From positions 62,001 to 126,000 of the forward strand of contig NZ_CABPSK010000001.1 of assembly GCF_902459645.1 (NCBI RefSeq): a stretch of DNA of 64,000 bases, given 5' to 3'. Each line of letters starts with the position of its first letter. Positions within the stretch are counted from its first letter, which is position 1. This DNA comes from Pandoraea pneumonica (GTDB lineage Bacteria > Pseudomonadota > Gammaproteobacteria > Burkholderiales > Burkholderiaceae). A program made the position numbers and the translations under genes. Below, piece by piece: positions 8,388 through 61,131 of the stretch. Below the pieces are notes generated by a model. The model did no database searches. It was not told where the DNA came from and was given only the letters and a program-made list of their open reading frames with translations.

Positions 8388-8634
8388 GGGATCCCCCGTA
8401 TGACCTGCTATCCCGTGGGCCTGTGGCCCATTTTTTGCGCAGTGTAGCAGAACGGGCTGCCGAAAATGAGAGGGGGTAGCGATACTTCGGGATACCCCGA
8501 GATACCCCGGCAAGGCACCGTCAACTGTGATTAGTGCGGGCGACAAAGGGCATGTCGGCTGAGACAATGCAGCCATGTCGAAACCGCTGCCACAGAGGAT
8601 TTCGACGCAACTGACAACTCAAACGGGGGCCAAC

Positions 8635-41065: not shown

Positions 41066-41094
41066 GTCGTCAGCGCGATTCGCGAGACGAAACA

Positions 41095-41120
41095 AAAACA
41101 CCCGCTACGGCGGGTGTTTT
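41095..41120 (+). terminator. Terminator of DUF2147 copy 2
   Basis: The stem AAAACACCCGC (41095-41105) with GCGGGTGTTTT (41110-41120) has a TACG loop and a T-rich tail. It is bidirectional and also serves the minus-strand gene ending at 41295. Confidence 0.85.
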
Positions 41121-41294
41121 GTTTTGACCTATGCATGTTCGCCAACGACAACGCCCGGACAGTGTCGCCACACTGTCCGGGCTCGCCGCCCACCCTAGCC
41201 CTGCCACAACTCTCTACACCCTCCACGCCCTTCACACCCCCAGCACTGCTTCCTCTCGCGAATCACGCACTACCGGCCCTGCCAACTTCGTTGT

Positions 41295-42620: not shown

Positions 42621-42670
42621 GAGATGTCTCCTCAAAGGGGCAGCGCAAAGGGGCAACGCGTCGTGCAGCG

Positions 42671-43402
42671 TTAGCCGCGTACCGGGGCAGGGCGGCCGGT
42701 CGAAACCAGTCCGGCGATGTCCTGATCCGCTTCGAAGCGCAGACGGAACGTCTCGCTCTTGAGCGTGCGAATGCTCTGCACCAGAAAGTCGTGAATGGCA
42801 GCGAGTTCGTTGTGGTCGTACGCGGCACTCACCGCAGTGAGTTCGCGCGACACCGACGACAAGAACTGTTCGATTTGCGCGCAGCGCGATTCGATCGGAT
42901 GAATCATCACCATGCGGCGATCGTGCGGGTTCTTCTCGCGCTCGACGAAGCCCGCGCGCTCGAGCCGGTCGATGACGGTGGTGATACCGCCCGAGCTCAC
43001 GCCCATGAGTTCGGCGAGTTGCCCGGCGGTGATCGATTCGAGTTCGAGAATCAGATCGAGCGCGTTCAGATCGGTGACGTTCAATCCGAGTTGTTCGGCG
43101 AGCGCCGCGTGATAGAGCGCGGTGTACACGGCGAGCCGGCGTCCGAGCGAGCGGACGATGCCGGCGACGAGGTCGTTGCGATTCGTGTGTCGGTCGCTCA
43201 TGGTGCCGTGCGTTCCGTTGAGCTGAGAGGCAGAAGACGTTGCCCCGTAAGCGGCACCGTGGTCGGTGCCGGAGGTGTTGTGCAAGTGGCTCGAAAACGT
43301 ACCGTTGCCGGGTTCGCGCATTGCTGCCGGTTCGGTCATTTGCGTGGCGGACTCGCCATGGCCGCGCATCAAAAGGCCGGTGTCGGGAATGAAGCGGGCC
43401 AT
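42671..43402 (-). CDS. MarR-family transcriptional regulator with long N-terminal extension
   Basis: A 243-residue regulator. The winged helix (DLILELESITAGQLAELMGVS, SGGITTVIDRLERAGFVERE, DRRMVMIHP) occupies residues about 75-185. The first 66 residues are Ser/Gly/Thr-rich and disordered, which is unusual. The start at 43402 is supported by AAGGAGAT, so the extension is likely real; the ATG at 43204 without an extension is the alternative. MarR proteins repress nearby genes and respond to small aromatic or oxidant ligands; the adjacent lipoprotein gene is the likely target. Confidence 0.85.
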   Translation of the reverse strand: MARFIPDTGLLMRGHGESATQMTEPAAMREPGNGTFSSHLHNTSGTDHGAAYGATSSASQLNGTHGTMSDRHTNRNDLVAGIVRSLGRRLAVYTALYHAALAEQLGLNVTDLNALDLILELESITAGQLAELMGVSSGGITTVIDRLERAGFVEREKNPHDRRMVMIHPIESRCAQIEQFLSSVSRELTAVSAAYDHNELAAIHDFLVQSIRTLKSETFRLRFEADQDIAGLVSTGRPAPVRG

Positions 43403-43499
43403 GGCATCTCCTTATCGATCAAGTGCGCAAAGCATCGGTGTCTGTTGCCGTTGCGCGATGGGTATGTCTTAAGCGTTCACTACGCGCTTTTACTACGCG

Positions 43500-44813: not shown

Positions 44814-45114
44814 GATGTTCATCTCCCTGATTTTTCCTGTGTCCCGGCGGCGAGCCGCGCAGTGACGTTCTGTGGTTATGTCTTCGGTTGCTCGGTTACT
44901 TCCATTTCAGAAACCTGGGCCGTTCGCTCTGTAACCGTTGAAGCCTTGATGTACGGTTGGCACAGTTGAGACGAGCCGCGTTCGGGGCGGGCCGGACCCG
45001 GACCTTCTCGACCCGATGTGCGGACATCGGGAGGAGGGCCGGATCGCGGCGATCGCAGGCGGGTGGGGGAATCGCACGGGTCATGGTCTTGGCGCTCCAG
45101 TTCGCGATCTGCGC
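44814..45114. other. Intergenic region upstream of lipoprotein paralogue 2
   Basis: About 300 bases with no supported gene; promoter of the gene at 43500. A weak GG-N10-GC pattern on the minus strand at 44890-44903 could be a poor sigma-54 site, but the remaining consensus bases are missing. Stretches of GGTTAC/GTAACC around 44893 and 44932 recall the CGTTAC motif found upstream of the next operon. Confidence 0.35.
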
Positions 45115-46767: not shown

Positions 46768-46796
46768 GATGGTGTCCTCTGGTCGTTTGTGTGTGA

Positions 46797-47108
46797 TCAG
46801 GCGAGCGCTTCTTGCGCTGCCAGTCGGGTGTTCATGCGTTGTGCGATGAGTGCGAACAGAAGCGCCTCGACAGCTGCGCTGGTGGGGCCCGTCATCGCCA
46901 GGGCCTGATTCGTGCGTTGGGTGCCAGCCGTGTCGAACGGTGTGGCGGTGGCGCGTACGCCACCGCCGTCCTCACCGCTCCTCCCTGGGCTTGCGCCTCT
47001 ACGATCGTCTTGGGCGGCAGCGCTGCGCTGCATGGCCCCGACGCGTTGCTGCGAGGCCGTAAGGCCTGCGGTGCTGAGCGTCGTTTGTTTGGTAATGCCA
47101 ATGATCAT
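46797..47108 (-). CDS. Small hypothetical protein, first gene of a sigma-54-type operon
   Basis: A 103-residue protein with no signal peptide. A polar, Ala/Gly/Arg-rich N-terminal half leads into a helical C-terminal segment (MTGPTSAAVEALLFALIAQRMNTRLAAQE). The ATG at 47108 has GGGGGAC 6 bases upstream, and a sigma-54 promoter lies about 45 bases before it. It precedes lipoprotein paralogue 3 by 29 bases. The hydrophobic C-terminal helix could mediate self-association. I do not recognise the family. Confidence 0.6.
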   Translation of the reverse strand: MIIGITKQTTLSTAGLTASQQRVGAMQRSAAAQDDRRGASPGRSGEDGGGVRATATPFDTAGTQRTNQALAMTGPTSAAVEALLFALIAQRMNTRLAAQEALA

Positions 47109-47150
47109 GGTGTCCCCCGGTGATCTTTAGCGTTGCGATGCAGGGATATG

Positions 47151-47168
47151 CGCAAGAGGTGTGCCAAC
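47151..47168 (-). promoter_or_regulatory. Sigma-54 (RpoN) promoter
   Basis: On the minus strand the sequence reads TTGGCACACCTCTTGCG. It has -24 TGGCAC and -12 TTGC with the required GG-N10-GC spacing (CC at 47164-47165 and GC at 47152-47153 on the plus strand). The start of transcription should fall near 47141, leaving a leader of about 33 bases with a good ribosome site for the gene starting at 47108. A sigma-54 activator is encoded at 61219. Confidence 0.8.
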
Positions 47169-48241
47169 CTCTAAATCCGGGGTTGAGTAATCGCTCTAGT
47201 TTTCCGATCGATAGCCGCGAAAGCCTGTATTTATTTGCGTTTCGGAAAACAAGAATCTTTTGGATCGAGAGATCGACGACTGGCACGCCTGATCAAAAAT
47301 CAGGGTTAACGAGATCGGGAAAAGGTGAAATGGCGACGAAATGTGGCGAATAACTGTTCCCGTTACGAGGGGCGTTACGGGTAACGTTACGTAACGTCGT
47401 GCCGTGTTTGTCCGGGTAAATACGCGGATAAAGAGGGGCCGCCCATATGCGTAAACGCAATTGCGATCGATTCTCGTGAGGCGCCGCCGGAGTACTTGGC
47501 GATACGAGGTAATTTTCCGAAATCACGTTACGCAAGCCGTTCGCAATGCGATGCGCTGCTCGCTGCGGCAAAGGTGATTGCCGCTCTGGAAAAGGGGGCT
47601 TGCCGCAGGCGAATAGGAGGTAATGCGGATGGAATTCGACGCGCTAATTCGGGCAGTATGGAAATGCCACGGATGGCGAAAGATTTCGAAAGATTAGATG
47701 GTTGCGCGGATGGCGGTGGAAGTGTCAGATATCGCCTGACGCCGTAACTGGCAAGGATTGCGAAGTCATCGGCGGAAGATGAGGCGCAATGAGGGTGTTG
47801 CGATGTGGTGCTGGCGGATGGATGAAAAGTTATTTAAATGTCCGCTGCATTTGAAGCGTTGTTTCGCTCACACGCACAGAATCATGGTTTTCCCTCGACG
47901 GTGTTGCATTGCTTAGTTTTGGAGTATTGTTTGAGCAACCCGTGTAACGTTTTCTTACATTCTCCGCGGCGATTGGTAGAAGTGCTCTAGTTTTTGCGTT
48001 TTAGTTTAAATTAGCATCGAAAAAAAATAGTGCGCCGTCCCAACGGTTACTTCGGCAGGCTGGGAAATAATGGCGTACAAAGTAAAAGAGGTTCGGAAGC
48101 CTTGCTGCGTATCGAACCCAGGGTCGAAGTCAAGAGTTGATAAGCGATATGGCGGGTTTGCGCCTTTCAGGTTTGCGCCTGAGTGTGACTCGCTGTGTAT
48201 GCCAACGGGCGAAAATCGCCTTAATAGTGAGGGAGGGTGAG
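47169..48241. other. Long non-coding region between the lipoprotein operon and the Tad locus
   Basis: About 1.07 kb with no supported gene; the open frames here are short, lack ribosome sites and are rich in rare codons. The stretch is AT-richer than its surroundings, especially 47830-48030. It holds the sigma-54 promoter of the divergent operon, a cluster of CGTTAC/GTAACG motifs (47361-47396, with further copies at 47526 and 47944), and a direct repeat GGTTTGCGCCT at 48155-48165 and 48170-48180 just before the first pilin gene. It very likely contains the regulatory sites of both the pilus and lipoprotein operons. Confidence 0.65.
47361..47396. promoter_or_regulatory. Cluster of CGTTAC/GTAACG palindromes (candidate activator sites)
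   Basis: Within 36 bases there are CGTTAC at 47361 and 47373, the palindrome GTAACGTTAC at 47381-47390 and the palindrome CGTTACGTAACG at 47385-47396. The block lies about 220-255 bases upstream of the predicted sigma-54 start, the usual place for enhancer sites of sigma-54 activators. The assignment to the regulator at 61219 is inference. Confidence 0.5.
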
Positions 48242-48427
48242 ATGAAACTCGGCAATCGTATTCGACTGTTTGCGCGCGATGAACGTGGCGTAACTGCGCT
48301 GGAGTACGGCATTTTGGCCGCCATTGTCGCCGTGGTGATTGGGGTGACAGTTTCCTCGTCGTTGACGACTACCTTTACGCAGATTTTCAGCAAGGTTCAG
48401 TCCGTCATCACTTCTGCCGGCACTTGA
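48242..48427 (+). CDS. flp: Flp-family type IVb pilin 1
   Basis: A 61-residue prepilin. The leader ends at G and is followed by VTALEYGILAAIVAVVIGV, so the prepilin peptidase site is ERG|VTALEYG with the conserved Glu at +5 and Tyr at +6. The hydrophobic helix forms the pilus core. It is preceded by GGGAGGG. An in-frame ATG at 48137 is too far upstream. It is the major subunit of the Tad pilus and first gene of the locus; the second pilin starts 24 bases on. Confidence 0.93.
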   Translation: MKLGNRIRLFARDERGVTALEYGILAAIVAVVIGVTVSSSLTTTFTQIFSKVQSVITSAGT

Positions 48428-48450: not shown

Positions 48451-48663
48451 ATGGGACACATGCGGCGTTTACAGGCCGTGCAGCGAAGCCGAAGGCGGCC
48501 TGGCGCGCGACGACAGAAAGGGGTGACGGCGCTTGAATACGGCCTTCTCGCCGCGATTGTGGTGTTGATCATCGGGACGACCGTCTATACCCAGTTGGGT
48601 GGGGTGATGACGTCGTTATTCAGCACCATGTCGTCGGCCGCCATCTCGGTGATTTCGCACTGA
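48451..48663 (+). CDS. Flp-family type IVb pilin 2
   Basis: A 70-residue prepilin with a longer, very basic leader (MGHMRRLQAVQRSRRRPGAR), then QKG|VTALEYGLLAAIVVLIIGT, again with Glu +5 and Tyr +6. The mature part differs from pilin 1 (YTQLGGVMTSLFSTMSSAA). GGAGAC precedes the ATG. A second, divergent pilin is common in Tad loci and may be a minor subunit. Confidence 0.9.
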   Translation: MGHMRRLQAVQRSRRRPGARRQKGVTALEYGLLAAIVVLIIGTTVYTQLGGVMTSLFSTMSSAAISVISH

Positions 48664-48676
48664 AACGAGGGCCATC

Positions 48677-49156
48677 GTGCTCACCTTGCTGTGGTTGCTC
48701 TGCGTGCCGATTATGGTCACCGATCTGATCGCACGCCGCATTCCCAACGTCTGGCTGCTGTGGGTGGGCGCACTTGCACTGGCGTGGATAGGGTGGCGGG
48801 CGTGGCAGGGAGAGCCTCGCGTCCTCTGGGTTCACGGTCTCGGTGCGCTGCTCGGATTGATCGTACTACTACCGTTTTGGTGGCGCGGTGTGATGGGGGC
48901 GGGCGACGTCAAGTTGTTCGCACTGATCGGTTTGATTGCCGGCTACCCGGCGCTGTTGCCGGTGTGGTGTCTGGCGAGCGTCGCGGCAGGTGTGCATGCC
49001 CTTGTGCTGCTGACAGGGCGCCTCGCATGGCTCAAGCGATGGCGTGAGCGAATGGCGGCAACCGCCACGTGGCAACGCGTGGAGCGATGGCGGGCCGGGC
49101 GTATCGGGTTGCCTTACGGGGCGTATCTGGCCGCGGCAGCGCTGGTGGTGCGGTAG
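48677..49156 (+). CDS. cpaA: Tad prepilin peptidase (TadV/CpaA, A24 family)
   Basis: A 159-residue membrane aspartyl peptidase that cleaves Flp leaders. Both catalytic Asp motifs are present: VTDLIARRIPN near residue 15 and GAGDVKLFALIG near 75. Several hydrophobic helices match the family; it lacks the methylase domain of PilD. The start is GTG at 48677 with GAGGG upstream. It lies 13 bases after pilin 2. Confidence 0.9.
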   Translation: MLTLLWLLCVPIMVTDLIARRIPNVWLLWVGALALAWIGWRAWQGEPRVLWVHGLGALLGLIVLLPFWWRGVMGAGDVKLFALIGLIAGYPALLPVWCLASVAAGVHALVLLTGRLAWLKRWRERMAATATWQRVERWRAGRIGLPYGAYLAAAALVVR

Positions 49157-49304
49157 CGGTTTGAACAGTGGGACGGGTATGTCGAGTGCCGCAAAAAGCG
49201 GCACCGCAAAAACGGGAGGCGCGGGCGACGCCGCGCGAATAGGCAGGACCAATGCGTCGCCAAACACGGCCTACAAGCGCCGTGCGCGACGGGGGAGTGT
49301 CGTC

Positions 49305-49784
49305 ATGAAGCGGTACGGGACACCGATGGGATCAGGGCTGAGGCAAGCGCACGCGCGCGGTGTCGCCGCTCTGGAGTTCATGCTTATTCTCATCATCCTG
49401 TTGCCCGCTTTCTACGTCGCCGTTGGCTTCTCCATCAACATTCTTGCGCGTCAAATGCTGACGCAGGCGGCGTCGGAAGGCGGCCGGGCGATGTTGCGCG
49501 CCGGTACGCTGTCGCAGCGCCAGAGCTTCGCCACGCAGGCGGTGGGTAACACCCTGGCGTGGCCTGCATCGAGCGCGGTGACGACCAGCTTTGTGCCCGA
49601 CACCACGTATCCGTGCCCTGCCTCCGGCGCGACGAGCTCCGCCTCGCAATGCATCGTTCACGTCAACCTCAGCCTGAATCAGCCGATGACCATCAATTGG
49701 CCGGGGCTGGGGAGTCTGGTGCCATCGACCATCAATGGCACCGCCGCAGTCACGCTCGACACGTCGACACTTGGCGGCAGCTAA
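49305..49784 (+). CDS. tadE: TadE-like pilus assembly protein
   Basis: A 159-residue pseudopilin-like protein. The N-terminus has a G|VAALEFMLILIILLPAFY processing site (ARGVAALEF), then the TadE-like helix and a roughly 100-residue extracytoplasmic part. GGGGGAG precedes the ATG at 49305. In-frame starts at 49179 and upstream would add a basic tail and are less likely. TadE-like proteins are minor pseudopilins needed for Flp assembly. Confidence 0.82.
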   Translation: MKRYGTPMGSGLRQAHARGVAALEFMLILIILLPAFYVAVGFSINILARQMLTQAASEGGRAMLRAGTLSQRQSFATQAVGNTLAWPASSAVTTSFVPDTTYPCPASGATSSASQCIVHVNLSLNQPMTINWPGLGSLVPSTINGTAAVTLDTSTLGGS

Positions 49785-49877
49785 GGGTTCGCGTGAGAAA
49801 GGATTGACCGACGTTGTCATGCCGCCGGCTCGCCGGCGCCCGAAATTTGTGACTGAACGGCCGCAGGGCCTCAAGCC

Positions 49878-50897
49878 ATGAACAAAGCCACCAAGATTAT
49901 TGCTGTCGTGCTGGTCATTGCCGGGGTGGTGCTGGCGATCTTCGCGCTGAAATTGGGTACGCAAAACGCGCCAGCCCCGGCGGCGACGCCGTCGGCGGTC
50001 ACGCAAACCCTCACACAGCGCTACCCGGCCGTGGTGGCGGCCAAGGCGCTTTCTCCGGGACAGCCCATCGCCGCCGACGCCGTCAAGATCGTGCAGTTCG
50101 ACGCCCAGACACCGGGCGCTTTCACCAACCCCGCCGATGTCGTTGGCCGGGTGCCGCTCGTGGCCCTTGCCGCCGGGGTGCCGGTCACGCAAAACACCCT
50201 CGCACGCGGTCTGGCCATGCAACTCGCGCCGGGGGAGCGCGCCGTCGCGTTGCCGGTCACCGAAGTCGTGGGGGTTTCCAACCGCATTCGCCCGGGTGAC
50301 TACGTCGACGTGTTTTTCACGATGAAGACCAATCAGGCACCCGGTCCGGCCGTTGGGCTGGTGGACGACACGCAGGCCCGGTTGCTCGCGGCGCGTGTGC
50401 GCGTGCTGAGCTACGGCAATGCCTCGCTCGACGACGTCGCGCCGGTACCCACCACACCGGGTGTCGCGTCGACCGTGCAAGCGGCCACGACCACGGCACC
50501 GCCGCCGCCGCCGGCCAATGTGAATGTGCAACCGCCGATGCCCGCGACCGCCGCCGTCGTGGCTGTGCCGGTGGACGAGGTCAATCGCGTGGTGCTCGGC
50601 ACGCAGCAAGGAAAGATCACGCTCGCGTTGCGCAACCCGGCGGATGACGCCAAACCCGATACGTCGCTCTTCCCGTCGCCGCCGCCGGTACTTGCCGGAA
50701 AGGCCGGGCTCAAGGGCGACGACAAGGCGGCACTCGACACGCCGGAGAATCAGGCTTACGCCGGTATCGCCACGACGGGGCTGGCCGGTGCGCCGGTGCG
50801 TCCGGCCGCTGCCCCGCGCCCTGCTGGCGGCGGGCATGGTGGCGGCGGTTCCATCGAGGTTGTGCGCGGTGCAGAGCGCACGACGGCAGCATTCTGA
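49878..50897 (+). CDS. cpaB: Flp pilus assembly protein CpaB/RcpC
   Basis: A 339-residue protein with an N-terminal membrane helix (IIAVVLVIAGVVLAIFALKLG) and an SAF domain (VVAAKALSPGQPIAADAVKI; NPADVVGRVPLVALAAGVPV). A CpaB-type region follows (LAPGERAVALPVTEVVGVSNRIRPGDYVDVFFT), with low-complexity Pro/Ala linkers. RcpC/CpaB works in the periplasm with the secretin. It lies upstream of the secretin as in other Tad loci. Confidence 0.9.
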   Translation: MNKATKIIAVVLVIAGVVLAIFALKLGTQNAPAPAATPSAVTQTLTQRYPAVVAAKALSPGQPIAADAVKIVQFDAQTPGAFTNPADVVGRVPLVALAAGVPVTQNTLARGLAMQLAPGERAVALPVTEVVGVSNRIRPGDYVDVFFTMKTNQAPGPAVGLVDDTQARLLAARVRVLSYGNASLDDVAPVPTTPGVASTVQAATTTAPPPPPANVNVQPPMPATAAVVAVPVDEVNRVVLGTQQGKITLALRNPADDAKPDTSLFPSPPPVLAGKAGLKGDDKAALDTPENQAYAGIATTGLAGAPVRPAAAPRPAGGGHGGGGSIEVVRGAERTTAAF

Positions 50898-50986
50898 GCG
50901 GCAAGATCGTAGACCAGACGACGTAGAGAAGCGCTTGACCCAAGGCTTTCAAGTTCAATCGAAACAGTGACCGATACAGCCACGCC

Positions 50987-52378
50987 ATGATCAGAAGCCA
51001 GGTTCGCACTGCCAGACGAGATGTCAGACGTGTCACGGGGACGCTGTTGTGCTTCGCCGCGCTGGTCGCGTGCGCTGCCACGGTGTCGGTGCGTCTGGCC
51101 GAAGCCGCAGACACCTCGCAAAGCGCGACGCGCTCATTGACGCTGGGGGTGCACGAGCAACGCGAACTGCCGTTGCCCGGCACCCTCGAGCGGATCGCCG
51201 TGGCCGACCCGGCCGTGGCCGATGTGGTCGTGTTGCGGGGTTCGGGCGGACGCAAAGGGTCGGTGCTCGTAGTCGGCAAGAAGGCGGGCACGACGCAGGT
51301 GTCGGCCTGGCCGCGCGGCGGCGAGGCCATGCGCTGGGAAGTGCACGTGACGGGCGATCTGCAAAGCGCCTTGGGCGATACCGGGACCGCGAATGTCGAC
51401 GCACGCGGCGGCGCAGCGCTCATTCAAGGCCATGCGAATACGATGATCGAGCATAGCGGCCTGCAAGCGGCTGCCGTCGATGCGACGGGCAAGGGCGGTG
51501 TGGTGGTCGATCGCTCGACAGTCGGCGAGACGGGAGTCGTGCAGGTCGATGTGAAGATCGTCGAAATCAACCGCAACATCCTGAATCAGATCGGGGCGAG
51601 CTTCGCCGCGTCGAAGAAGAGCGGGTCGGGCAGCTTCGGGGTGGTCTCGCAACTGGCCGGGGCCTTCGGCGGGTCGGGCGGAACGGGCAGCGGTCAGGTC
51701 TCCAGCTTCGGCACGTTCTTCGGCTCGATCACACGCGGCGCGTTCACGCTCTCGGCGGCCATCGATTTGGTGCAGACGAACGGCTTGGGCCGAATTCTGG
51801 CGGCACCGACGCTCGTTGCGCTCTCCGGCCAAAGCGCGAGCTTCCTCGCCGGTGGCGAGATTCCGGTGCCGCAATCGGGCGGTCTGGGCACGACGACGGT
51901 GACGTATAAGCCGTTCGGTGTGGGCTTGACGGTGACGCCGACGATCCTCTCGCCCGGGCGCATTGCGTTGAAGGTGGCGCCGGAAGCGTCGGACATCGAT
52001 TACACCAACGCGATCGTGACCGATTCGGTGCAAATTCCCGCGATCACGACGCGTCGTGCCGATACGACGGTCGAGTTGGGCGATGGTGAAAGCTTCGTCA
52101 TCGGCGGGCTGATTTCACGTACGACGACCGCTTCGGTCGACAAGATTCCGTTGCTCGGCGACTTGCCGCTCATCGGCGCATTTTTCCGGGACTTGAAGTA
52201 CTCGAGTGCAGAAAAAGAATTGGTCATCATCGTGACGCCGCATTTGGTCAAACCGGTTGCCGCCGGTGTGGCCATGCCGTTACCGGGCGATACGCGCGAG
52301 CAACGTCCCGGTCAGGTGTGGGGCGCTTACTTGATGGGCGGGGCAAGCGACAGTGAACTGCCGGGGTTCTCGAAGTAA
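50987..52378 (+). CDS. cpaC: Outer-membrane secretin of the Tad pilus (CpaC/RcpA)
   Basis: A 463-residue secretin. A signal peptide is followed by an N-terminal RcpA-type domain (LERIAVADPAVADVVVLRGS; VLVVGKKAGTTQVSAW) and the secretin core: ILAAPTLVALSGQSASFLAG, GEIPVPQSGGLG, VTYKPFGVGLTVTPTIL and IPLLGDLPLIGAFFRDLKYSS near the end. It forms the ring through which the pilus passes. It lies 90 bases after cpaB. The gene order cpaB-cpaC-tadZ-tadA-tadB-tadC is canonical. Confidence 0.93.
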   Translation: MIRSQVRTARRDVRRVTGTLLCFAALVACAATVSVRLAEAADTSQSATRSLTLGVHEQRELPLPGTLERIAVADPAVADVVVLRGSGGRKGSVLVVGKKAGTTQVSAWPRGGEAMRWEVHVTGDLQSALGDTGTANVDARGGAALIQGHANTMIEHSGLQAAAVDATGKGGVVVDRSTVGETGVVQVDVKIVEINRNILNQIGASFAASKKSGSGSFGVVSQLAGAFGGSGGTGSGQVSSFGTFFGSITRGAFTLSAAIDLVQTNGLGRILAAPTLVALSGQSASFLAGGEIPVPQSGGLGTTTVTYKPFGVGLTVTPTILSPGRIALKVAPEASDIDYTNAIVTDSVQIPAITTRRADTTVELGDGESFVIGGLISRTTTASVDKIPLLGDLPLIGAFFRDLKYSSAEKELVIIVTPHLVKPVAAGVAMPLPGDTREQRPGQVWGAYLMGGASDSELPGFSK

Positions 52379-52406
52379 CGCTGGCGGAGCAGTAAGGAGT
52401 GCAAAC

Positions 52407-53738
52407 ATGAACGCACCGAACCGAATACTGGACACCATGACTGAGTTGCATCGCTTCCTCTTTTGCAGCGCGCACGCCGGCCACGGTCAGTGGCTCTCGG
52501 CTGCGCTGCGCGAAGAGGGCGTGTTGCTTCAGGAGGCGGGTCGGCCAGCGCAATTGCAGCAGCGCATCGGCGATCTCGATCCGCAGGTGGTGTTGCTCGA
52601 CTTCTCGGGCGAACCGACGGGGCACGCCGATGAGCCGGCCGACGGCGGCATCGCACAGGCGGCCGAACTCGCGCAGATGCTCAAACGTGTGGCGCCCAAG
52701 CTGCCGCTCGTGGCGGTGGGGTCGATGGTGCGTGCCGACGGCATGAAGGCCGCCATTCGCGCCGGTGTGCACGATTTCATCGATATGCACTCCACGCACG
52801 AAGAGGCGCTCGACGTCATTCGCCGCGTCATCGATCAGACGCCGCCGCCCAGTGCTTCGGCACCTTCCCGGCACGGCCGCTTCGTGGTGCTGCTCGGCGC
52901 GCGTATCGGCGTGGGCTGTAGCACGCTCGCCGCGCACCTCTCCCAACTGTCGCAAGAACTCGCGGTCGGGACGCCTTCGGCGAAACCGGCTAAGGCGTCC
53001 GCGTCGAAAGACGATAAGTTCGACGCCGCGTTGCTCGGTCACGTGGCGCTGCTCGATCTCGGGCTGCCCTCGGGCGACGGTCTGCTGTATCTGAATACGC
53101 AAAGTCAATTCAGCTTCGCCGAAGCCGTGCAGAACCTGCGCCGCTTCGACGAGACGCTGGTGCACACGGCGATCTCCCATGCGTCGAGCGGTCTGGCCGT
53201 GTTGCCGCTGCCGCTCGATCTCGGCGATATGCGCAGCGTGGCGGCGGCCGACGCGCTCGCGCTCACCGACCGCCTGCGTTCGTTCTTCGATTTGATCGTG
53301 GCCGACCTGGGCGGCTTCTCCAACCCGGCGTTCGTGGCGAGCCTGGTGCGCGCCGCCGATGAAGTCTGGCTCGTGGTCGATCAGAGCGTGGGTGCCATCG
53401 TCTCGCTGGCGTCGCTGCTGCGCGATCTCGAAGAGAAGAGTGTGGAGCGCAGTCATCTGCAACTGGTGCTCAATCGCTACGACCCGCGTTACGGCATGGC
53501 AGCCGATCAGATCGCCAAACGCTTCGACGTGCCGCTGCTCGCCACGCTGCCCGACCGGCCGCTGGCGATGCTCTCGGCGACCAATCAGGGCAAGCTGATT
53601 CTCGACACGGCGCGCAGCGACCCGTACGTGCGGGCGTTGCAACCGCTTGCGGAACGACTGCTTGCCGCGCAGCACGCGGGCGCTGCGGCTCAACGTCAGG
53701 CTTCGGGCTGGCTTGGCCGCTTCATTGGAAAGCACTGA
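52407..53738 (+). CDS. tadZ: TadZ/CpaE-like pilus localisation protein
   Basis: A 443-residue protein: an N-terminal receiver-like domain without the phospho-Asp (VVLLDFSGEPTGH), and a C-terminal MinD/ParA-type ATPase fold. The P-loop is degenerate, GARIGVGCSTLAAHL near residue 164, with Cys where ParA has Lys. This change is seen in TadZ proteins and suggests weak or no ATPase activity. Later motifs fit the family (LDLGLPSGDGLLYLNTQ; IVADLGGFSNPAFVASLV). AAGGAG precedes the ATG. It targets the pilus machine to its cell position. Confidence 0.9.
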   Translation: MNAPNRILDTMTELHRFLFCSAHAGHGQWLSAALREEGVLLQEAGRPAQLQQRIGDLDPQVVLLDFSGEPTGHADEPADGGIAQAAELAQMLKRVAPKLPLVAVGSMVRADGMKAAIRAGVHDFIDMHSTHEEALDVIRRVIDQTPPPSASAPSRHGRFVVLLGARIGVGCSTLAAHLSQLSQELAVGTPSAKPAKASASKDDKFDAALLGHVALLDLGLPSGDGLLYLNTQSQFSFAEAVQNLRRFDETLVHTAISHASSGLAVLPLPLDLGDMRSVAAADALALTDRLRSFFDLIVADLGGFSNPAFVASLVRAADEVWLVVDQSVGAIVSLASLLRDLEEKSVERSHLQLVLNRYDPRYGMAADQIAKRFDVPLLATLPDRPLAMLSATNQGKLILDTARSDPYVRALQPLAERLLAAQHAGAAAQRQASGWLGRFIGKH

Positions 53739-53739
53739 T

Positions 53740-55101
53740 ATGACTGACTCGATCGAATTTGCCGACGACAGGCGTGCATTTGCCAACTCGCAGCAATTTC
53801 AGGACATCAAGACCGCAGCGCACGAGCATCTGCTCGCGCGGATCGAGGAACTCGGCGCGGAATTCGGCCGTTGGAGCCGTGGCGCGATTCAGCAGTTTGT
53901 CGATTTGGAGATGGACGGCTTCGTGCGGCTGCGCCGCATTCCGATCAACGAAGCCGAACTGCGTCAGATCTCGGATGCGCTCACAAAAGAACTGGCCGGT
54001 TTCGGCCCGATCGAGGACTTGCTCGGCGACCCCGCGGTCGAAGACATTCTGATCAACGGCTACAACGACGTGTACGTGTCGCGCAACGGCGTGCTCGCGC
54101 GCGAGGCGTTGCGCTTCTCCGATAACGCGCATTTGCTGCGCATCGTGCGCCGCATTCTGGCGCCCATCGGACGTCGGCTCGACGAATCGAATCCGATGGT
54201 CGATGCGCGCCTGCCCGATGGTGGCCGCCTGAATGTGGTGATCGAACCGCTGGCCGTCGACGGCCCGGTGGTGTCGATCCGGAAATTCCGTAAAGACCCG
54301 CTCAAGCCGTCGGACCTGCTGGCGCTCGGCAGCTTTAACGAAGAGATTTACGGGCTGCTCGAAGCGGCGGTGCGCTCGCGATGCAACATTCTTGTGTCGG
54401 GCGGTACCAGCTCGGGGAAGACATCGTTGCTCAATGCGTTGGCTAGCTTCATTCCGGCCACCGAGCGTGTGGTGACGGTGGAAGATACGGCCGAACTCTC
54501 GCTCAATCACCCGCACGTGGTGCGGCTGGAGTCGCGCCAAGGCGGCTTCGACGGCTCGGGCGAGGTGACCATTCGCGACCTGATTCGTAACAGCTTGCGG
54601 ATGCGCCCGGACCGCATCATCGTGGGCGAAGTGCGCGGCTCGGAAGTGCTCGAAATGATGCAGGCGATGAACACGGGGCACGAAGGCTCGATGGCCACGA
54701 TTCACGCCAACTCGCCGCGCGAATGTCTCTATCGTCTCGAAATGCTGGCGGGTTTTGCGGGTTTTCAGGGCAGCGAAAGCAGCCTGCGCCGCCAGATCAC
54801 GAGCGCGCTCGATTTCATCGTGCAGATCGGCCGCTTGTCGAGCGGACGCCGCCGCATTCTGTCGATCACTGAAGTCACGGGTGTCTCGGACACGGTGATT
54901 TCCACGCAGGAACTCTATCGCCACGAAGCCTTTGTCGGTCCCGACGGTGAAGAGAAAGACCGCTGGGTGTCCCTGGGTATTCAACCGCACTCGCCCAAAT
55001 TGCAGCGCTACAAGGACCAGACGCGCAATGCGACGGCGGCAGCGCAGGGCAATACGCCGCCCGACTCGGGTGGCGGCGGCTTCTTCGGACGGCGTCGATG
55101 A
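53740..55101 (+). CDS. tadA: Tad pilus assembly/retraction ATPase (TadA/CpaF)
   Basis: A 453-residue secretion ATPase. The Walker A is [15 protein letters not shown] near residue 221; the Asp and Walker B regions are [10 protein letters not shown] and [14 protein letters not shown] near 289; the His box is [15 protein letters not shown]. The N-terminal domain carries the CpaF signature [20 protein letters not shown]. It powers both extension and retraction in Tad pili. It starts 1 base after tadZ and overlaps tadB by 4 bases, so tightly coupled translation is likely. Confidence 0.96.
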
Positions 55102-56021
55102 ACCCCGTCGTGTTGTGGATCTCGTGTGTCGCGCTGCTGCTCGTGGCCGCGGGGCTCGAGTTGTGGCGGCGCACGCATCAGCGTGCACGCGAGCAGGCGA
55201 CGAGTGCTTTTATCGAACGGCAACTGGCCAACAACGCGCCGCAGTTCGCGGCTGCGGAAGGCGCCATCGCACGGGTGGCGCGCCGCAAAGCGCTGCCGTG
55301 GGAATTCTTCTTCGAGCGCGCGGGCGTGTACCCGACGACAGGCTTTTACGCGATGTTGATTGGCGGCGGGGTGGGGCTCGCATTGCTCTTCTTGCTGTGG
55401 CACGGGCCGTTCTCGGCGCTGATTGTGCTGATTCTGTATGTGATTGGGGTGGTGCTGCGCTACTGGTTGAAAGGCGTACGCCGCCATACCGAGATCGTGA
55501 AACAACTGCCGATATTTCTCGATGGCATGGTGCGCATGCTGACGGTCGGCAACAGCTTGCCTGCGGCGTTTCAGACGGCGTCGGGCAACGCGGATATGCC
55601 GCTGCGCGAACTGCTCGACAGCGCGGTGCGTCAAGTGCAGGCCGGGGTCGATCTCGATGTCGCGCTCAAGCAAATTGCGCGGGTGTATCGCGTCGAAGAA
55701 ATTTATCTTTTCGCGTCGGTGGTCGATTTGTCGACACGCTTCGGCGGGCGCGCCGATCAGATTCTCGCGCGCATGGCGGGCTTCATGCGCGATCGTGAGC
55801 AGGCGCAGGCGGAATTGCATGCACTCTCGTCGGAGACGCGGATGTCGGCCTGGGTGCTCGCCGCGTTGCCGATTGTCGTGAGCGCATTTCTGATGCTGTT
55901 CAATCCGGCGTTCTTCGAGCCCATGTTTCAACAACCGGCGGGCCTGAAGATTATTGGCATCGGTCTTGGGCTGGAAGCCCTTGGCGGCTTCATTCTGTAC
56001 CGCCTGGCCAAATCCATCTGA
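55098..56021 (+). CDS. tadB: Tad inner-membrane platform protein TadB
   Basis: A 307-residue polytopic protein with a GSPII_F domain (LPIFLDGMVRMLTVGNSLPAAFQTASGNA), an N-terminal helix, two central helices and C-terminal helices. It works with TadC as the membrane platform of the Tad machine. It overlaps tadA at ATGA (55098-55101) and ends 18 bases before tadC. Confidence 0.92.
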   Translation: MNPVVLWISCVALLLVAAGLELWRRTHQRAREQATSAFIERQLANNAPQFAAAEGAIARVARRKALPWEFFFERAGVYPTTGFYAMLIGGGVGLALLFLLWHGPFSALIVLILYVIGVVLRYWLKGVRRHTEIVKQLPIFLDGMVRMLTVGNSLPAAFQTASGNADMPLRELLDSAVRQVQAGVDLDVALKQIARVYRVEEIYLFASVVDLSTRFGGRADQILARMAGFMRDREQAQAELHALSSETRMSAWVLAALPIVVSAFLMLFNPAFFEPMFQQPAGLKIIGIGLGLEALGGFILYRLAKSI

Positions 56022-56039
56022 GCGAGAGGCGATCCCCTA

Positions 56040-57080
56040 ATGAACCTTTCGTCCTTCACGTCGCTGGCCGCCGATTCGCATACCTGGCTGATGCTGGGTT
56101 TGCTGCTGGTCGCCGCCGGTCTGTTGCTCGCGGCTTCGGCCATTTTGCTGCGGGGGCTGCGTCAGGATCGAAGCGGGCGTGTGATCGATCAGGTGATTGC
56201 GAGTCGGCAACAGCAGGCGCTGGCGGCGCTTAGAGCGGCGACGGCACCGATGGGGAGTTCGCTTTCGCCAGCGCAAGAGGACGATGGGACCAACACCGGG
56301 GCGAAGGGCTGGCGCTCGCTTTTCGATCGTGCAGCGGCGCTCGGCAAGCGTTGGTCTGAGACGCGTCTGGGGCAGTATCTGATCGCGGCCGAAGATCGCT
56401 TGTTGCTCGCGCAATGCGGTTGGGACAGCGTTCGCGCGAAGTCGTTGTTCTTGTTTTCTCGCGTGGCGTTGGCCGGGGCGTTGCTGTTGTTCGTGTGGGT
56501 CTGGATGCCGGGTAACGGCGGTCTGGGCACGCTCTTGCGGCTGATCGGCGCGATCTGTGTCGGGCTGATGCTGCCGAAGCTTTACGTGCAGCGCCGGGCC
56601 AATCAGCGCCGTCGCGAGTTGGTGGAAGAGTTGCCGCTGCTCATCGACTTGCTCCGTCTGTTGCAGGGCGTGGGGTTGTCGATGGATCAGAGCTTGTATG
56701 TGGTGGTGTCCGACTTCCGTGAGGTGCTGCCGATTCTGTCGAAGGAATTCGAGAACGCGAATCGTCAATATGCGTCCGGGCGAGGGCGCGAAGCGTCGAT
56801 GGTGCGCTTGCGCGAGGTGTACAACAACGACGATCTGCGCGCGCTGGTGCGCTTGATCGTGCAGGTCGAACAACACGGCGGTGCGGTGCAAGAGCCGTTG
56901 CAGCAGTTCAGCGACCGGTTGCGCGAGCAGCGGCGCCAGACGATGAAAGATCGCATCGGCAAGCTCACGGTCAAGATGACCCTCGCGATGATGCTCACGT
57001 TGTTACCCGCGCTGATGGTGGTGGTCGCGGGGCCGGCGATTCTCTCGCTGGCGAAAACTCTGGAGGGCCTGCAACAATGA
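56040..57080 (+). CDS. tadC: Tad inner-membrane platform protein TadC
   Basis: A 346-residue polytopic protein with a GSPII_F domain (RRELVEELPLLIDLLRLLQGVGLSMDQSL; LRALVRLIVQVEQHGGAVQEPL) and hydrophobic helices at both ends. It pairs with TadB. Its stop overlaps the start of tadD (ATGA at 57077-57080). Confidence 0.92.
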   Translation: MNLSSFTSLAADSHTWLMLGLLLVAAGLLLAASAILLRGLRQDRSGRVIDQVIASRQQQALAALRAATAPMGSSLSPAQEDDGTNTGAKGWRSLFDRAAALGKRWSETRLGQYLIAAEDRLLLAQCGWDSVRAKSLFLFSRVALAGALLLFVWVWMPGNGGLGTLLRLIGAICVGLMLPKLYVQRRANQRRRELVEELPLLIDLLRLLQGVGLSMDQSLYVVVSDFREVLPILSKEFENANRQYASGRGREASMVRLREVYNNDDLRALVRLIVQVEQHGGAVQEPLQQFSDRLREQRRQTMKDRIGKLTVKMTLAMMLTLLPALMVVVAGPAILSLAKTLEGLQQ

Positions 57081-58261
57081 CACGTTCCGCTTTCGCAATG
57101 GCACGGGAAGACTCGCCGCAGCGCGCGCGTAAGCCCGTGGCGCGTTGGGTCGTCGGTGCGCTGTGCGTGCTGATGGTGGCCGGATGCGCGTCGAAGGGCG
57201 GCGGTTATGGCGCACCCTCGGCCGCCGCGCTCATGCGTGCACAACAGGATGACGAAGCGAAGGCTAAGACGGCCGCGCCCGATACGAAGGAACTGTATCT
57301 GTCGATGATTCGCGAGATGCAGGACCGGGGGGCTTACTTCGCCTCGTTGGCGCATATCGATCAGTTCCGAATCCAGTACGGCAGCTCGCCGGATGTCGAC
57401 ATTCTTCGCGCCGATGCATTGCGCGAGACCGGCCAACCCGACGCGGCCGAAACGACCTATCGAACGCTGCTTGGCAGCAGTGTGGCCGCCGCCGCATGGC
57501 ATGGCCTCGGGCTAGTCGCGGCGCAGCGCAAAGACTATGCAGGCGCGACGCAAGCACTACGCGAAGCGGTGAGCCGGGCACCGACCGAACCGTTCTATCT
57601 CAGCGATCTCGGCTTTGCGCAGTTGAGCAACGGCGACACCGCCGGGGCACGCGTGCCGCTGGCCCAGGCGGCCGAACTCAAACCCGATAGCCGCAAGGTG
57701 CTGAGCAATCTCGCCGTGTATTTGCTGGTGACGGGAGAGACGACGCGGGCCGACCAGATGATGTCGCAGGCGAAATTCCCGCCCGCCACGCGTGAGGCGA
57801 TTGCCAAGCTCGCGAGCGATATTCGCGCCCACGCGCAAGCTGCGCGCGCTGCGGCAGACGCGGCAGCGGCAAGGGCAGCGGCGCAGGCGGCAGCTCAGGC
57901 GGCGGCTCAAGCAGCGACGATTGTGCCTGCGGCACCGGCTGCGGTACCCGTCGCTTCTGCATCTGCTTCCACATCCGTTTCCCCATCCGCACCCGCTGGC
58001 GCTGTCGTCGTGCGCTTGCCGGAACCGGGTGCGCGTGCCGTGGCGGCGACGGCGGACGGGGCTCCGGCAACGGCTCCGGTCAATCGCGTGGCGTCGAACA
58101 GTGCCGCAAATAATGCGGTGAATAGTGCTGCGGATAGTGCCTCGAAGGGTGCCCCGAAGAGCGCCGCGAGCGGTGCGGACGCCAAGCTTGCGCGGGCCAA
58201 CGATGTCTCGCGCAGCGATATGCCGACCTCGTTGCTCGACCGGTTCTCGAATTCACAATGA
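57077..58261 (+). CDS. tadD: TPR lipoprotein of the Tad system (TadD)
   Basis: A 394-residue lipoprotein (lipobox MVAGC-ASKGG, Cys near 36). TPR repeats (LRADALRETGQPDAAETTYRT; AAAWHGLGLVAAQRKDYAGA; LAVYLLVTGETTRADQMMS) fill residues 70-240. The last 150 residues are Ala/Pro/Ser low complexity. TadD is the pilotin-like lipoprotein needed for secretin assembly. Translation is coupled to tadC by a 4-base overlap. Confidence 0.88.
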   Translation: MTRSAFAMAREDSPQRARKPVARWVVGALCVLMVAGCASKGGGYGAPSAAALMRAQQDDEAKAKTAAPDTKELYLSMIREMQDRGAYFASLAHIDQFRIQYGSSPDVDILRADALRETGQPDAAETTYRTLLGSSVAAAAWHGLGLVAAQRKDYAGATQALREAVSRAPTEPFYLSDLGFAQLSNGDTAGARVPLAQAAELKPDSRKVLSNLAVYLLVTGETTRADQMMSQAKFPPATREAIAKLASDIRAHAQAARAAADAAAARAAAQAAAQAAAQAATIVPAAPAAVPVASASASTSVSPSAPAGAVVVRLPEPGARAVAATADGAPATAPVNRVASNSAANNAVNSAADSASKGAPKSAASGADAKLARANDVSRSDMPTSLLDRFSNSQ

Positions 58262-58323
58262 TTCGCGGGGCAGCCCGCAAGCAGCGAAACGCATAAGTAG
58301 TCACGCAACTTCAGGGAGACGTG

Positions 58324-58947
58324 ATGATGGCAGGCCAAATGCAACGATGGGAGCAAGTCTCCCCGCCGACCCGGGCGATGCATCGGGACACGTCGGCCCA
58401 TACGGCACCGGCAGCGCAATGGCTTGCCGGTATCGCGCTGGCGTTGTGCGCAAGCTGGGCCGGTGCGCAAACGAGTCCGCCCTTGACGGGGCAAATGGGC
58501 GGCGCCGATACGCGTACGGTCGCACAGGCGACGGCGGAGCCGACCGCGCCGACAAATGCCGCCGTCGTCCAGCAAGTGCCCGCGCAAGCCCCGGCAGCAC
58601 AGACGACCCAAGCGACCCAAGCGGCGCCAGTTTCGCAAGCGAGCCGTGTGCCGCCCAATACGGTGCGTCGTACCACACCGTTGCGCGTCGGCGAGCATGC
58701 CGCCGACGGCATGTTGGGCGACGAGACGGAGGCGTTGCTCACATTGCAGGCGAGCAATTTGGCCGCCGGGCGCGGTTTGCCGATGCTGGGGGCGACGGCC
58801 TCGCGCGCTTACCGGCGGTATCTCGAGAGCTTTAACTACGCGATTCCCGCGTTCTACCCGACGATGGTGCAAAGCGATAGCAGCACTGGCGGCGGCGGTG
58901 GCGCGGGCGGGGCGACATCGAGCGGAGGGGCTGGCGCAAGCCAGTGA
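58324..58947 (+). CDS. DUF3613-family protein of the Tad locus
   Basis: A 207-residue exported protein. A hydrophobic segment (WLAGIALALCASWAGAQ) serves as signal; then a Gln/Ala/Thr-rich disordered linker and the DUF3613 domain (LGDETEALLTLQASNLAAGR ... TASRAYRRYLESFNYAIPAFY). The tail is Gly/Ser-rich. GGGAGAC precedes the ATG at 58324. DUF3613 genes sit in Tad loci of Burkholderiales and Xanthomonadales; the role is unknown. Confidence 0.83.
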   Translation: MMAGQMQRWEQVSPPTRAMHRDTSAHTAPAAQWLAGIALALCASWAGAQTSPPLTGQMGGADTRTVAQATAEPTAPTNAAVVQQVPAQAPAAQTTQATQAAPVSQASRVPPNTVRRTTPLRVGEHAADGMLGDETEALLTLQASNLAAGRGLPMLGATASRAYRRYLESFNYAIPAFYPTMVQSDSSTGGGGGAGGATSSGGAGASQ

Positions 58948-58953
58948 TTCGTC

Positions 58954-61131
58954 ATGACACCCCGTGCGCGTGCGCGCAAAACGGCTTCACCAGCGGCATC
59001 GCAAGCCGCACCTTCTGCGTGCGCCGCATCCCGCGACGCACAGGCGACATGGCTGGGTAACCTGCGCCGCTTCGGTGGGCGGCAGCGCGGTTCCGTGCCG
59101 GTCGTCGCGTTTTCTTTTGTCTTTGTGGTGCTGCTGCTGTCGTTGGCCATCGACGCGGGCTATGCCTTCATGAAACGGCGCGACCTGCAACGCGCCGCCG
59201 ACATGGCAGCGCTTGCCGGTGCACAGACGCTGCCGGGTTGTGCGAACGCCACCTCCTACGACACGGTGGCCCGTGCAAATGCAACGTCGAATCTGGGTGC
59301 CGACGCCGCCAAAACGACGATCACGACGGCGTGCGGCGTCTGGACCAACCCGACGGCAAGCGCCACCACGCCGGGTACGTTTGCGGCTGTGAGTTCAGGG
59401 AATGCAGCCAGCGGCAACGCTGTACAGGTGACGCTTACGTTGCCGGTGGTGTCGTTCTTCCAACTCACCGGCTCGCGCAATATTTCGGCAACCGCCATCG
59501 CCCGGAAAGCACCGGCGGTGGTGACATTCACCGTCGACTCCGGGCTGCTCGCGCTAAATGCGAATAACTCGATACTGGCGCCGTTGCTTCAGTCGATCGG
59601 GATTTCGCCAACGCTCTACGTCGGCGCGGCGCAGCAGCTTGTAGGGGTGAACATCACGCCGCAAGGGTTGCTGCAAGCGCTGGGCGTGCCTGTCACGGGC
59701 GACGTGTCGGTGGCGTCGCTCTCAGGCGTGGCGGCGGTCAAGAACCTGACGCTCGGCACCTTGCTTAGCGCGACGAATACTGCGCTGGCCACGCAGAACG
59801 GGGCCGTGTCGGCTTCGGTGACGGCGCTGAACAATCTCATCAACGTGTTCGGCAACAGCCCGGTGTTGAATCTGCCGATTCAGTTGCTCGGTACCGCGAC
59901 GAGCCCCGGCATCATTGCCAATATCGATGCGGCCGGTGTGTCGGCGGCCAACGCGCTGACGGCCAATATCGGCGTGGCCGATCTGATTACGGCGGCCATC
60001 GTCGGTGCGAACGGGAATAACGCGATTGCGATTAACGGGCTGAGTCTGCTGGGCAACGCGGTGAACGTCAGCGCGAACGTGATCTCGCCGCCGCAGGTCG
60101 GCGTTGGCGGCGTCGGTGCGACGGCGACGACGGCACAGGTGCGGCTGTTTCTCACGCTCAACACGGCGGCGGCATCTGGGTCGCTGGGTTCGGTGGCGGG
60201 TTCGCTGCTGAACTCGCTGGGCACGACGTTGAATTTGCCGCTGGTGCTGGAAGTCGCCCAGTCGACCGGCACGGTCACGGCGGTGCAGTGCGGCGCGACA
60301 CCGTCGACGACGATTCAGGTGAACTCCGGGCTGGTCAACGTCTGCGTGGGCGCGGCGGCGAGCGGTGTGAACGTGAAAACCAATCCGGCGAGTTGCACCA
60401 CGCTCATGACCAATCGCGTGAACATCGCGACGCTGCTTGGACTGATTAACGTGTCGGGGAATGTGAATCTGTCGCTCGTCACGAACTCGCCTGCGCCGAT
60501 TACCTTCAGTGGTCCATTCCCGCAGAAGGTCGGGCCGATTGGGTCGAGCGTGAACCTGAGCCAGATCGTGACGGCGCTGCTCACGGGGTTGTCGCTGGAT
60601 GTGAGCGCGGGTGGGGGAACGTCTTCAACGAGTACGACCGCGGGTGGGCTGGTGGGCAATGTGCCGAACTCCGCCGTCGGGTTGTCGGTGACGACGGTCA
60701 ACAATTTCCTTAGCTCTGCGGCCTCAGGGCTTCAGTCCACTGTGAACGCGCTCGGGACTACGCTTGGCGGCGTGCTGACGCTAAATCTTCCGCAAGTGCT
60801 GGGCGGTGTGGGTGGTCTCGTCACCGGGCTTCTCAACACGCTCGGTGGCATTGTGAACGGGCTGCTCAGTACGCTGACCGATGTGGGGTGCGACTTGCTC
60901 GGCAGCGGGGCAAATCAGTGCCGGGTCGATGCGGTGAAGAGCGGCCTGAGCACCAGCAACATCTCGCCCGTGCTCGGCAGCATTCTCTACACGCTACTCA
61001 ACCCGTTGCTCACGCCGATCAGCACGTTGCTCAACACGTTGCTCAATGCGCTCGGCATCACGCTTGGCATGACGACGGTGACCGTGGACAGCATCAACTG
61101 CCAGAACGGGCTGGTGCAACTGGTGTATTAG
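58954..61131 (+). CDS. tadG: TadG-like pilus assembly protein with Gly/Leu/Asn-rich extension
   Basis: A 725-residue protein. It has one N-terminal membrane helix (VPVVAFSFVFVVLLLSLAID) and the TadG signature AGYAFMKRRDLQRAADMAAL. A long extracytoplasmic part is rich in Ala, Gly, Val, Asn and Thr. Its C-terminal third has LGTTLGGVLTLNLPQVLGG and GLLNTLGGIVNGLLSTLTDVG, a composition resembling the Gly/Leu-rich lipoproteins at 41-47 kb. Four Cys lie near the C-terminus. It starts 6 bases after the DUF3613 gene. No vWA domain is visible. Confidence 0.8.
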   Translation: MTPRARARKTASPAASQAAPSACAASRDAQATWLGNLRRFGGRQRGSVPVVAFSFVFVVLLLSLAIDAGYAFMKRRDLQRAADMAALAGAQTLPGCANATSYDTVARANATSNLGADAAKTTITTACGVWTNPTASATTPGTFAAVSSGNAASGNAVQVTLTLPVVSFFQLTGSRNISATAIARKAPAVVTFTVDSGLLALNANNSILAPLLQSIGISPTLYVGAAQQLVGVNITPQGLLQALGVPVTGDVSVASLSGVAAVKNLTLGTLLSATNTALATQNGAVSASVTALNNLINVFGNSPVLNLPIQLLGTATSPGIIANIDAAGVSAANALTANIGVADLITAAIVGANGNNAIAINGLSLLGNAVNVSANVISPPQVGVGGVGATATTAQVRLFLTLNTAAASGSLGSVAGSLLNSLGTTLNLPLVLEVAQSTGTVTAVQCGATPSTTIQVNSGLVNVCVGAAASGVNVKTNPASCTTLMTNRVNIATLLGLINVSGNVNLSLVTNSPAPITFSGPFPQKVGPIGSSVNLSQIVTALLTGLSLDVSAGGGTSSTSTTAGGLVGNVPNSAVGLSVTTVNNFLSSAASGLQSTVNALGTTLGGVLTLNLPQVLGGVGGLVTGLLNTLGGIVNGLLSTLTDVGCDLLGSGANQCRVDAVKSGLSTSNISPVLGSILYTLLNPLLTPISTLLNTLLNALGITLGMTTVTVDSINCQNGLVQLVY

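Follow-up and report, generated by a model that had tools for sequence, protein, structure and literature searches.

The region between positions 47151 and 47395 of the window (the whole 64,000-nucleotide stretch of Pandoraea pneumonica DNA analysed here) is very probably the promoter of a GtrR-sigma-54 regulon. The gene for GtrR closes the neighbouring Tad locus; the protein would bind a cluster of GTTAC/GTAAC half-sites upstream of the promoter (here denoted UAS) and would contact sigma-54 polymerase at a -24/-12 element, thereby switching on a transcript from near 47140. This transcript would cover the genes of a small protein, of three collagen-like lipoproteins and of a MarR regulator, probably ending at hairpins near 41150. 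Probable further targets of GtrR in this genome are an exported protein (locus L072) and an sRNA of ~80 nt (locus L070). We infer binding, activation, the extent of the operon and the existence of the RNA from observed sequence elements, their conservation, linkage and co-occurrence.

Table 1. Features of the proposed regulon and the adjoining Tad locus in the window and, in the last two lines, elsewhere in the host genome (G000)
Feature	Position	Strand	Basis or remark
Sigma-54 -24/-12 element TGGCACACCTCTTGCG	47151..47166	-	Sequence match; position kept in 26 loci
UAS, five GTTAC/GTAAC half-sites	47362..47395		Proposed GtrR binding site
Conserved block between UAS and promoter	47220..47260	-	Alignment of 26 same-genus intergenic regions
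First gene, 103-aa protein	46797..47108	-	No Pfam match
Collagen-like lipoprotein 1, PF15984	45115..46767	-	Lipobox and GGSSS repeats by eye
Collagen-like lipoprotein 2, PF15984	43500..44822	-	Lipobox by eye
MarR-family regulator inside operon	42671..43402	-	Domain search
Collagen-like lipoprotein 3, PF15984	41295..42620	-	Lipobox by eye; start chosen by hand
Two terminator-like hairpins, 41182-41153 and 41120-41095	41095..41182	-	After last operon gene
First Flp pilin, divergent Tad locus	48242..48427	+	Pfam; start chosen by hand
Second pilin and Tad assembly genes to TadG-like protein	48451..61131	+	Pfam on TadG-like protein only
Sigma-54 activator, GtrR ortholog	61219..62616	+	Domain search, phmmer
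UAS-sigma-54 pair and exported protein	G000:C3, L072:2047-3219	-	Pattern search
sRNA-like gene behind UAS-sigma-54 promoter	G000:C7:58454-58534 (L070:2955-3035)		By PAS-MCP, CheR and CheD genes

A conserved sigma-54 element precedes the operon

The preliminary description of this DNA placed a sigma-54 -24/-12 element before the ATG at 47108 on the minus strand, and the sequence bears this out. TGGCACACCTCTTGCG has the form GG-N10-GC, with two mismatches to TGGCACG-N4-TTGCW and the TGGCAC/TTGC context present; its 3' end lies 42 nt from the ATG, and transcription is predicted to start near 47140. Scored with our own position weights, it is the top sigma-54 site of the window (15.3; runner-up 13.4). 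The motif by itself is not above chance. When the window was shuffled 60 times with its dinucleotides kept, 23 shuffles contained a site scoring at least 15.3 (mean 0.53 per shuffle), the 64-kb window contains 16 consensus matches with two mismatches where 16.9 are expected, and genome-wide TGGCAC-N5-TTGC with at most one mismatch is found 631 times, barely more than the 590 of the reversed-pattern control. Hence, we rejected the motif alone as a measure of significance, and the case rests on position and conservation.

Conservation in relatives, a check proposed in the preliminary description, was examined at the 29 small-ORF loci fetched. In 26 of them the element starts 57-60 nt upstream of the ATG; of the remaining three, L027 and L028 have diverged and still contain an element, and L025, from the same genome as L029, is the latter part of a match that is split in two. 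The sigma factor gene rpoN is present in the host genome (G000:C2:923014-923481; PF04552, E = 9.1e-67). Among 32 same-genus genomes, 31 have it and only G003, of 1.2 Mb, does not.

Two further sigma-54-like sequences were noticed. One, scoring at least 13 in 12 of 26 same-genus loci (L007, L009, L011, L013, L014, L016, L017, L018, L019, L020, L022 and L029), lies 666-867 nt ahead of the small ORF, near the pilin gene and oriented toward the collagen operon; it is not in the window. The other is the 15-mer TGGCCCATTTTTTGC, identical at window position 8424 (G000:C1:70424) and at G000:C1:1746763, which is perhaps a repeated element.

Clustered GTTAC/GTAAC half-sites lie upstream of the element

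The UAS, which was not part of the preliminary description, accompanies the sigma-54 element across genera. In genera other than Pandoraea, collagen-like genes beside Tad have near-consensus sigma-54 elements preceded by these half-sites, mostly at a distance of 100-310 nt from the -24 element. The half-site cluster of the window includes the palindrome GTTACGTAAC at 47386-47395, a sequence that the 5.85 Mb genome contains just twice, and is located ~196-229 nt upstream of the -24 element. We propose that this cluster is the GtrR binding site. The conserved islands in an alignment of the intergenic regions include the element, a block at ~47220-47260 possibly acting in DNA bending, and a block at ~47355-47400 that corresponds to the half-site cluster. 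We also weighed a possible second small gene near 47885 (GAGGGAAAACCATG) and discarded it, since its frames vary from 5 to 41 codons and are unconserved over 26 loci.

The operon encodes collagen-like lipoproteins

The operon had been described as one of a small protein and Gly-rich lipoproteins, and we can now identify the three lipoproteins as collagen-like. Their PF15984 (Collagen_mid) scores are 183, 163.6 and 149.8 bits against a cut-off of 31.1. Inspected by eye, their repeats appear to be GGSSS and APVT..LLGGL, not regular G-X-Y. A search of 101 related genomes detected relatives of the first-gene protein in 28, every one from the same genus, with a nearly invariant core (RRGASPGRGG..GGGVRATATP); by an approximate method the median Ka/Ks is 0.55, and all 299 scored pairs, from 25 sequences, are below 1. 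The MarR gene is also found in same-genus relatives. The two hairpins after the last gene have the longest stems of five terminator-like sites in 41000-48400, a number not above that of shuffles (5 versus 6.4). The gap of 292 nt between collagen genes 1 and 2 leaves the extent of the operon uncertain.

The Tad locus encodes a GtrR ortholog

Divergent from the operon is a Tad locus whose gene order is similar in relatives; most of the gene names between 48451 and 61131 are those we presume to apply. No sigma-54 element was found before the first pilin gene in the window, as the preliminary description had stated, and the same holds for 12 pilin ORFs of 11 loci from other genera, where the best score within 450 nt is 6.6. 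A sigma-54 promoter for the pilins was thus sought and not found in either set.

The full sigma-54 activator reported at the far end of the Tad locus is indeed intact, with a Sigma54_activat domain, a Fis-type HTH and an AAA+ module carrying GAFTGA. phmmer matched it to the structures of Burkholderia cenocepacia GtrR (PDB 7vbs and 7vbw) with E = 8e-181 over residues 1-458 of 465 (7vbs_A), and by sequence the Tad-linked activator is an ortholog of GtrR. Published gtrR primers (PMC8174753) translate, in our reading, to the termini found in the Tad-linked proteins of L034 and L035, and the published size of 463 aa (PMC8174753) agrees with these proteins. Residues 11-128 of the activator are predicted to form alternating strands and helices (pLDDT 59-87 in the block, overall only 57); matches to receiver-only proteins are weak, and by eye the acceptor Asp of the receiver-like domain is apparently absent. 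The HTH helix is nearly invariant across the orthologs compared. We noticed that GAFTGA is replaced by GSFTGA in many orthologs (L034, L035, L036, L037, L039 and 44 of 72 named activators), and by GALAGA in G037, a genome without a PF15984 gene.

Activator, collagen genes and the UAS-promoter pair occur together

Among 101 related genomes, with a GtrR match cut-off of E = 1e-140 or better chosen by us, 44 contain the activator and 41 a PF15984 gene, and all 41 are within the 44. No PF15984 gene was found in the 57 genomes without an activator match, though 41 of these have rpoN. The three genomes with an activator match and no PF15984 gene are G006, where the match is split over two frames and no Tad gene is present in the 20 kb fetched, G037, and G029, whose contig begins inside the locus. 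Searches for the pattern of half-sites followed by a sigma-54 element (the pair) detected it in 33 of the 101 genomes, all with a GtrR match, while reversed-pattern controls gave 0 and 1.

We then drew a larger sample from 551 TadA-related loci in named genomes, taking the 80 best. The activator is present in 73 of these 80, and the seven misses are loci cut by the contig end. A complete collagen ORF is present in 46 non-Pandoraea loci; in all 46, a sigma-54 element scoring at least 11.5 and accompanied by at least two half-sites precedes a collagen gene, and 45 of 46 still qualify at a threshold of 12.5, both thresholds having been set after the list of loci was seen. Of the 83 collagen ORFs in these loci, 31 are without a pair of their own, and these are mostly second genes. 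The genera with the pair include Burkholderia, Paraburkholderia, Caballeronia, Trinickia, Ralstonia, Cupriavidus, Herbaspirillum, Collimonas, Oxalicibacterium and Allopusillimonas. Twelve more loci (Achromobacter, one Bordetella and partial Burkholderia-group loci) have the pair before a gene cut by the edge of the locus, and 11 of these 12 partial proteins match the collagen profile. Across the 80 loci, 72 sigma-54 sites carry at least two half-sites (five shuffles gave 1, 0, 0, 2 and 0) and 70 carry at least three (0 in five shuffles). We first spotted the half-site motif by eye in Pandoraea and had already noticed it in other genera before the larger test, and the genomes are related; hence, these counts are not independent.

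Away from Tad, the pair precedes collagen genes at four of ten loci (L044, L048, L051 and L052); none was found at L043, which starts at a contig end, nor at L045, L046, L049 and L050, and L047 is doubtful. An activator-like gene lies beside the distal collagen gene of G041 (L048). We rejected it as a GtrR copy since its HTH differs, and it was not used as evidence on GtrR.

Could sigma-54 drive the operon with a different enhancer-binding protein, of the nitrogen or flagellar type, acting on the UAS, and GtrR merely be linked? The host genome encodes nine strong Sigma54_activat domains, eight besides GtrR, and G006 keeps the promoter of the sRNA-like gene despite its split activator match. 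In nine Variovorax loci the activator is present and its HTH is very similar, but the locus has neither a collagen gene nor the pair. The pair pattern was also found in none of eight Variovorax genomes; the same search missed Achromobacter G109, a known positive (L144), so this genome search is weak evidence. Against another activator stand the complete absence of PF15984 genes from genomes that lack a GtrR match, the recurrence of the UAS with GtrR across genera, and the coincidence of collagen gene absence with the split match in G006 or with GALAGA in G037. We consider such an activator unlikely. It is highly improbable that the -24/-12 match is fortuitous, with sigma-70 transcribing the operon and the repeats serving an ordinary regulator such as the operon's MarR protein: the motif alone is not above chance, but the spacing is constant in 26 loci, the same element precedes collagen genes in other genera, and no sigma-70-like promoter was found in 41000-48400, though shuffles yield only 0.9.

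Control of at least this operon by the Tad-encoded activator, as put forward in the preliminary description, is therefore strongly supported by the comparison, through co-occurrence (41 of 44) and the shared UAS. The arrangement of UAS, promoter and collagen genes looks ancestral in Burkholderiales, and the small ORF looks to have become the first gene in Pandoraea.

Other candidate targets include an sRNA-like gene

The sequence GTTACGTWAC occurs at four places in the host genome, three of which have a sigma-54 element correctly spaced downstream: the collagen operon, L070 on contig C7 and L072 on contig C3. The fourth, L071 on contig C2, was dropped as a target, being located within a long frame and having no sigma-54 score above 9.7. 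L072 has four half-sites and the sigma-54 element TGGCATACAAGTTGCT, scoring 15.9, and 181 nt past TGGCATACAAGTTGCT begins a gene for an exported Ser/Thr/Gly-rich protein of 263 aa with no Pfam match.

In related genomes, we saw further possible targets as single observations. In G010 (L127) and G027 (L126) the pair precedes a secreted protein with APVT..LLG, SPLAPVTGVVGTVTGALGG-type repeats, which resemble the C-termini of the collagen lipoproteins. In G029 (L128, G029:C377) it precedes a PilZ/YcgR-like protein, which could be chance, and in Herbaspirillum (L147:3062, plus strand) a ShlB/FhaC-type transporter near a Tad locus.

At L070 the palindrome is followed after 95 nt by a sigma-54 element scoring 18.1, a 5' stem-loop and a GC-rich intrinsic terminator with a T-run. 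Judged by promoter geometry, transcription would begin where the first stem begins, at its base, and the structure has z = -4.29. The locus likely encodes an sRNA of ~80 nt. The pair and the sRNA-like gene were found in 26 of the 32 same-genus genomes searched, and strong matches to the sRNA model among 101 genomes are limited to Pandoraea, with weak ones in G012 and G019. In the alignment 98.9% of cells are paired, and the covariation score was reached by none of 500 shuffles; the three doubly changed pairs were equalled in 150 of 500, and these shuffles ignore relatedness. No Rfam family reached its gathering score. We rejected the best match, RF00625, with E = 0.22.

The next gene encodes a PAS-HAMP-MCP protein and is followed by cheR and cheD. 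In 23 of 26 loci a long MCP frame begins on the same strand, 336-390 nt further downstream, the frame of L094 being shortened. In 22 of 25 species the loop UUGCCCCG could form 7-8 base pairs with its complement CGGGGCAA, which is located 20-27 nt ahead of the MCP start; in L093, L094 and L097 the pairing is broken or weakened. Over the 25 species the mean z is -2.16, with no covariation. The MCP leader was the best of 12 leaders tested against the RNA (z -3.45 for the loop), making it a suggestive candidate target. Pairing with the leader of the collagen operon was weak (z -1.95 for the 5' part and -1.45 for the loop) and was set aside. The same-strand MCP frame and its complementary leader would also fit a terminated leader, or attenuator, of the PAS-MCP gene instead of a free sRNA. 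The strong terminator with its T-run, the conserved sequence of the 5' stem and loop, and the more than 300 nt between the RNA and the MCP gene argue the other way, and we regard an attenuator as possible though somewhat doubtful.

For the regulon as a whole, we tentatively suggest an adhesion switch, ancestral in Burkholderiales, in which GtrR and sigma-54 act via clustered GTTAC/GTAAC sites, and that in Pandoraea the UUGCCCCG loop of a free sRNA may block the start region of PAS-MCP. If so, collagen-like adhesins would be turned on as the chemosensory operon is turned off.

Comparison with known systems

Sigma-54-dependent sRNAs such as the Vibrio Qrr RNAs have a -24/-12 promoter, an upstream enhancer and an intrinsic terminator. 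L070 resembles this class in all three features and in the shortness of its predicted RNA. It differs in having no Rfam family above threshold and strong matches only within Pandoraea among the 101 genomes.

GtrR and collagen-like proteins are already known; in the parts of the open-licence literature available, we found no report joining GtrR, a GTTAC/GTAAC UAS and collagen genes, and none of the L070 sRNA. The closest published item is a list of predicted RpoN sites in Ralstonia solanacearum that includes RSp1093 and RSp1094, as hypothetical genes (PMC4371752). The two genes are adjacent and a sigma-54 site close to consensus is listed for each, much as in the divergent collagen pairs of Ralstonia loci L197, L199 and L200, and we infer that they are the Ralstonia collagen pair. 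They differ in that the available part of PMC4371752 gives no UAS and no activator.

In B. cenocepacia, the PF15984 relatives are the Bcc-CLPs BCAL1523 and BCAL1524, lipoproteins divergent from the flp genes (PMC10224339), and BCAL1524, which promotes auto-aggregation, is also of importance in a larval infection model (PMC10303873). The Pandoraea lipoproteins share the PF15984 domain, the lipoprotein character and the orientation relative to the flp genes (PMC10224339); the leading small ORF and the internal MarR gene are Pandoraea additions. The available parts of the Bcc-CLP descriptions (PMC10224339, PMC10303873) do not mention sigma-54 control. Contact with host-derived membrane vesicles induces the Flp genes BCAL1525, 1526 and 1528-1532 along with BCAL1520, 1523, 1524 and 1533 (PMC7970998). 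The preliminary description had tied the lipoproteins to the Tad pilus in one adhesion programme. This joint induction of Flp and lipoprotein genes supports such a programme, though the first pilin gene of the window and the 12 tested pilin ORFs are without a sigma-54 element, so that the tie to pilus expression is supported in part.

GtrR is BCAL1536 of B. cenocepacia (PMC12838280, PMC9684580). It acts with RpfR on cepI (PMC12838280) and affects motility, biofilm and virulence (PMC9684580), and a BCAL1536 mutant is attenuated in a rat model (reviewed in PMC5295037). No GTTAC/GTAAC UAS and no collagen-lipoprotein or sRNA regulon is described in the available parts of PMC12838280 and PMC9684580. 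The Pandoraea activator is like this RpfR partner in BDSF/c-di-GMP signalling in its full-length sequence match and its sigma-54 activator architecture, and BCAL1536 falls inside the Flp locus BCAL1520-1537 (PMC7970998), as the Pandoraea gene falls inside the Tad locus. GtrR has so far been studied as a quorum-sensing and c-di-GMP regulator; here its gene is part of the Tad locus, and the most conserved of its probable targets lies close by. Our analysis proposes members of its regulon in Pandoraea, the sRNA-like gene among them. A defined enhancer sequence would make the direct GtrR regulon predictable across Burkholderiales, and it provides a concrete test of the link between surface contact, c-di-GMP signalling and collagen-like adhesins.
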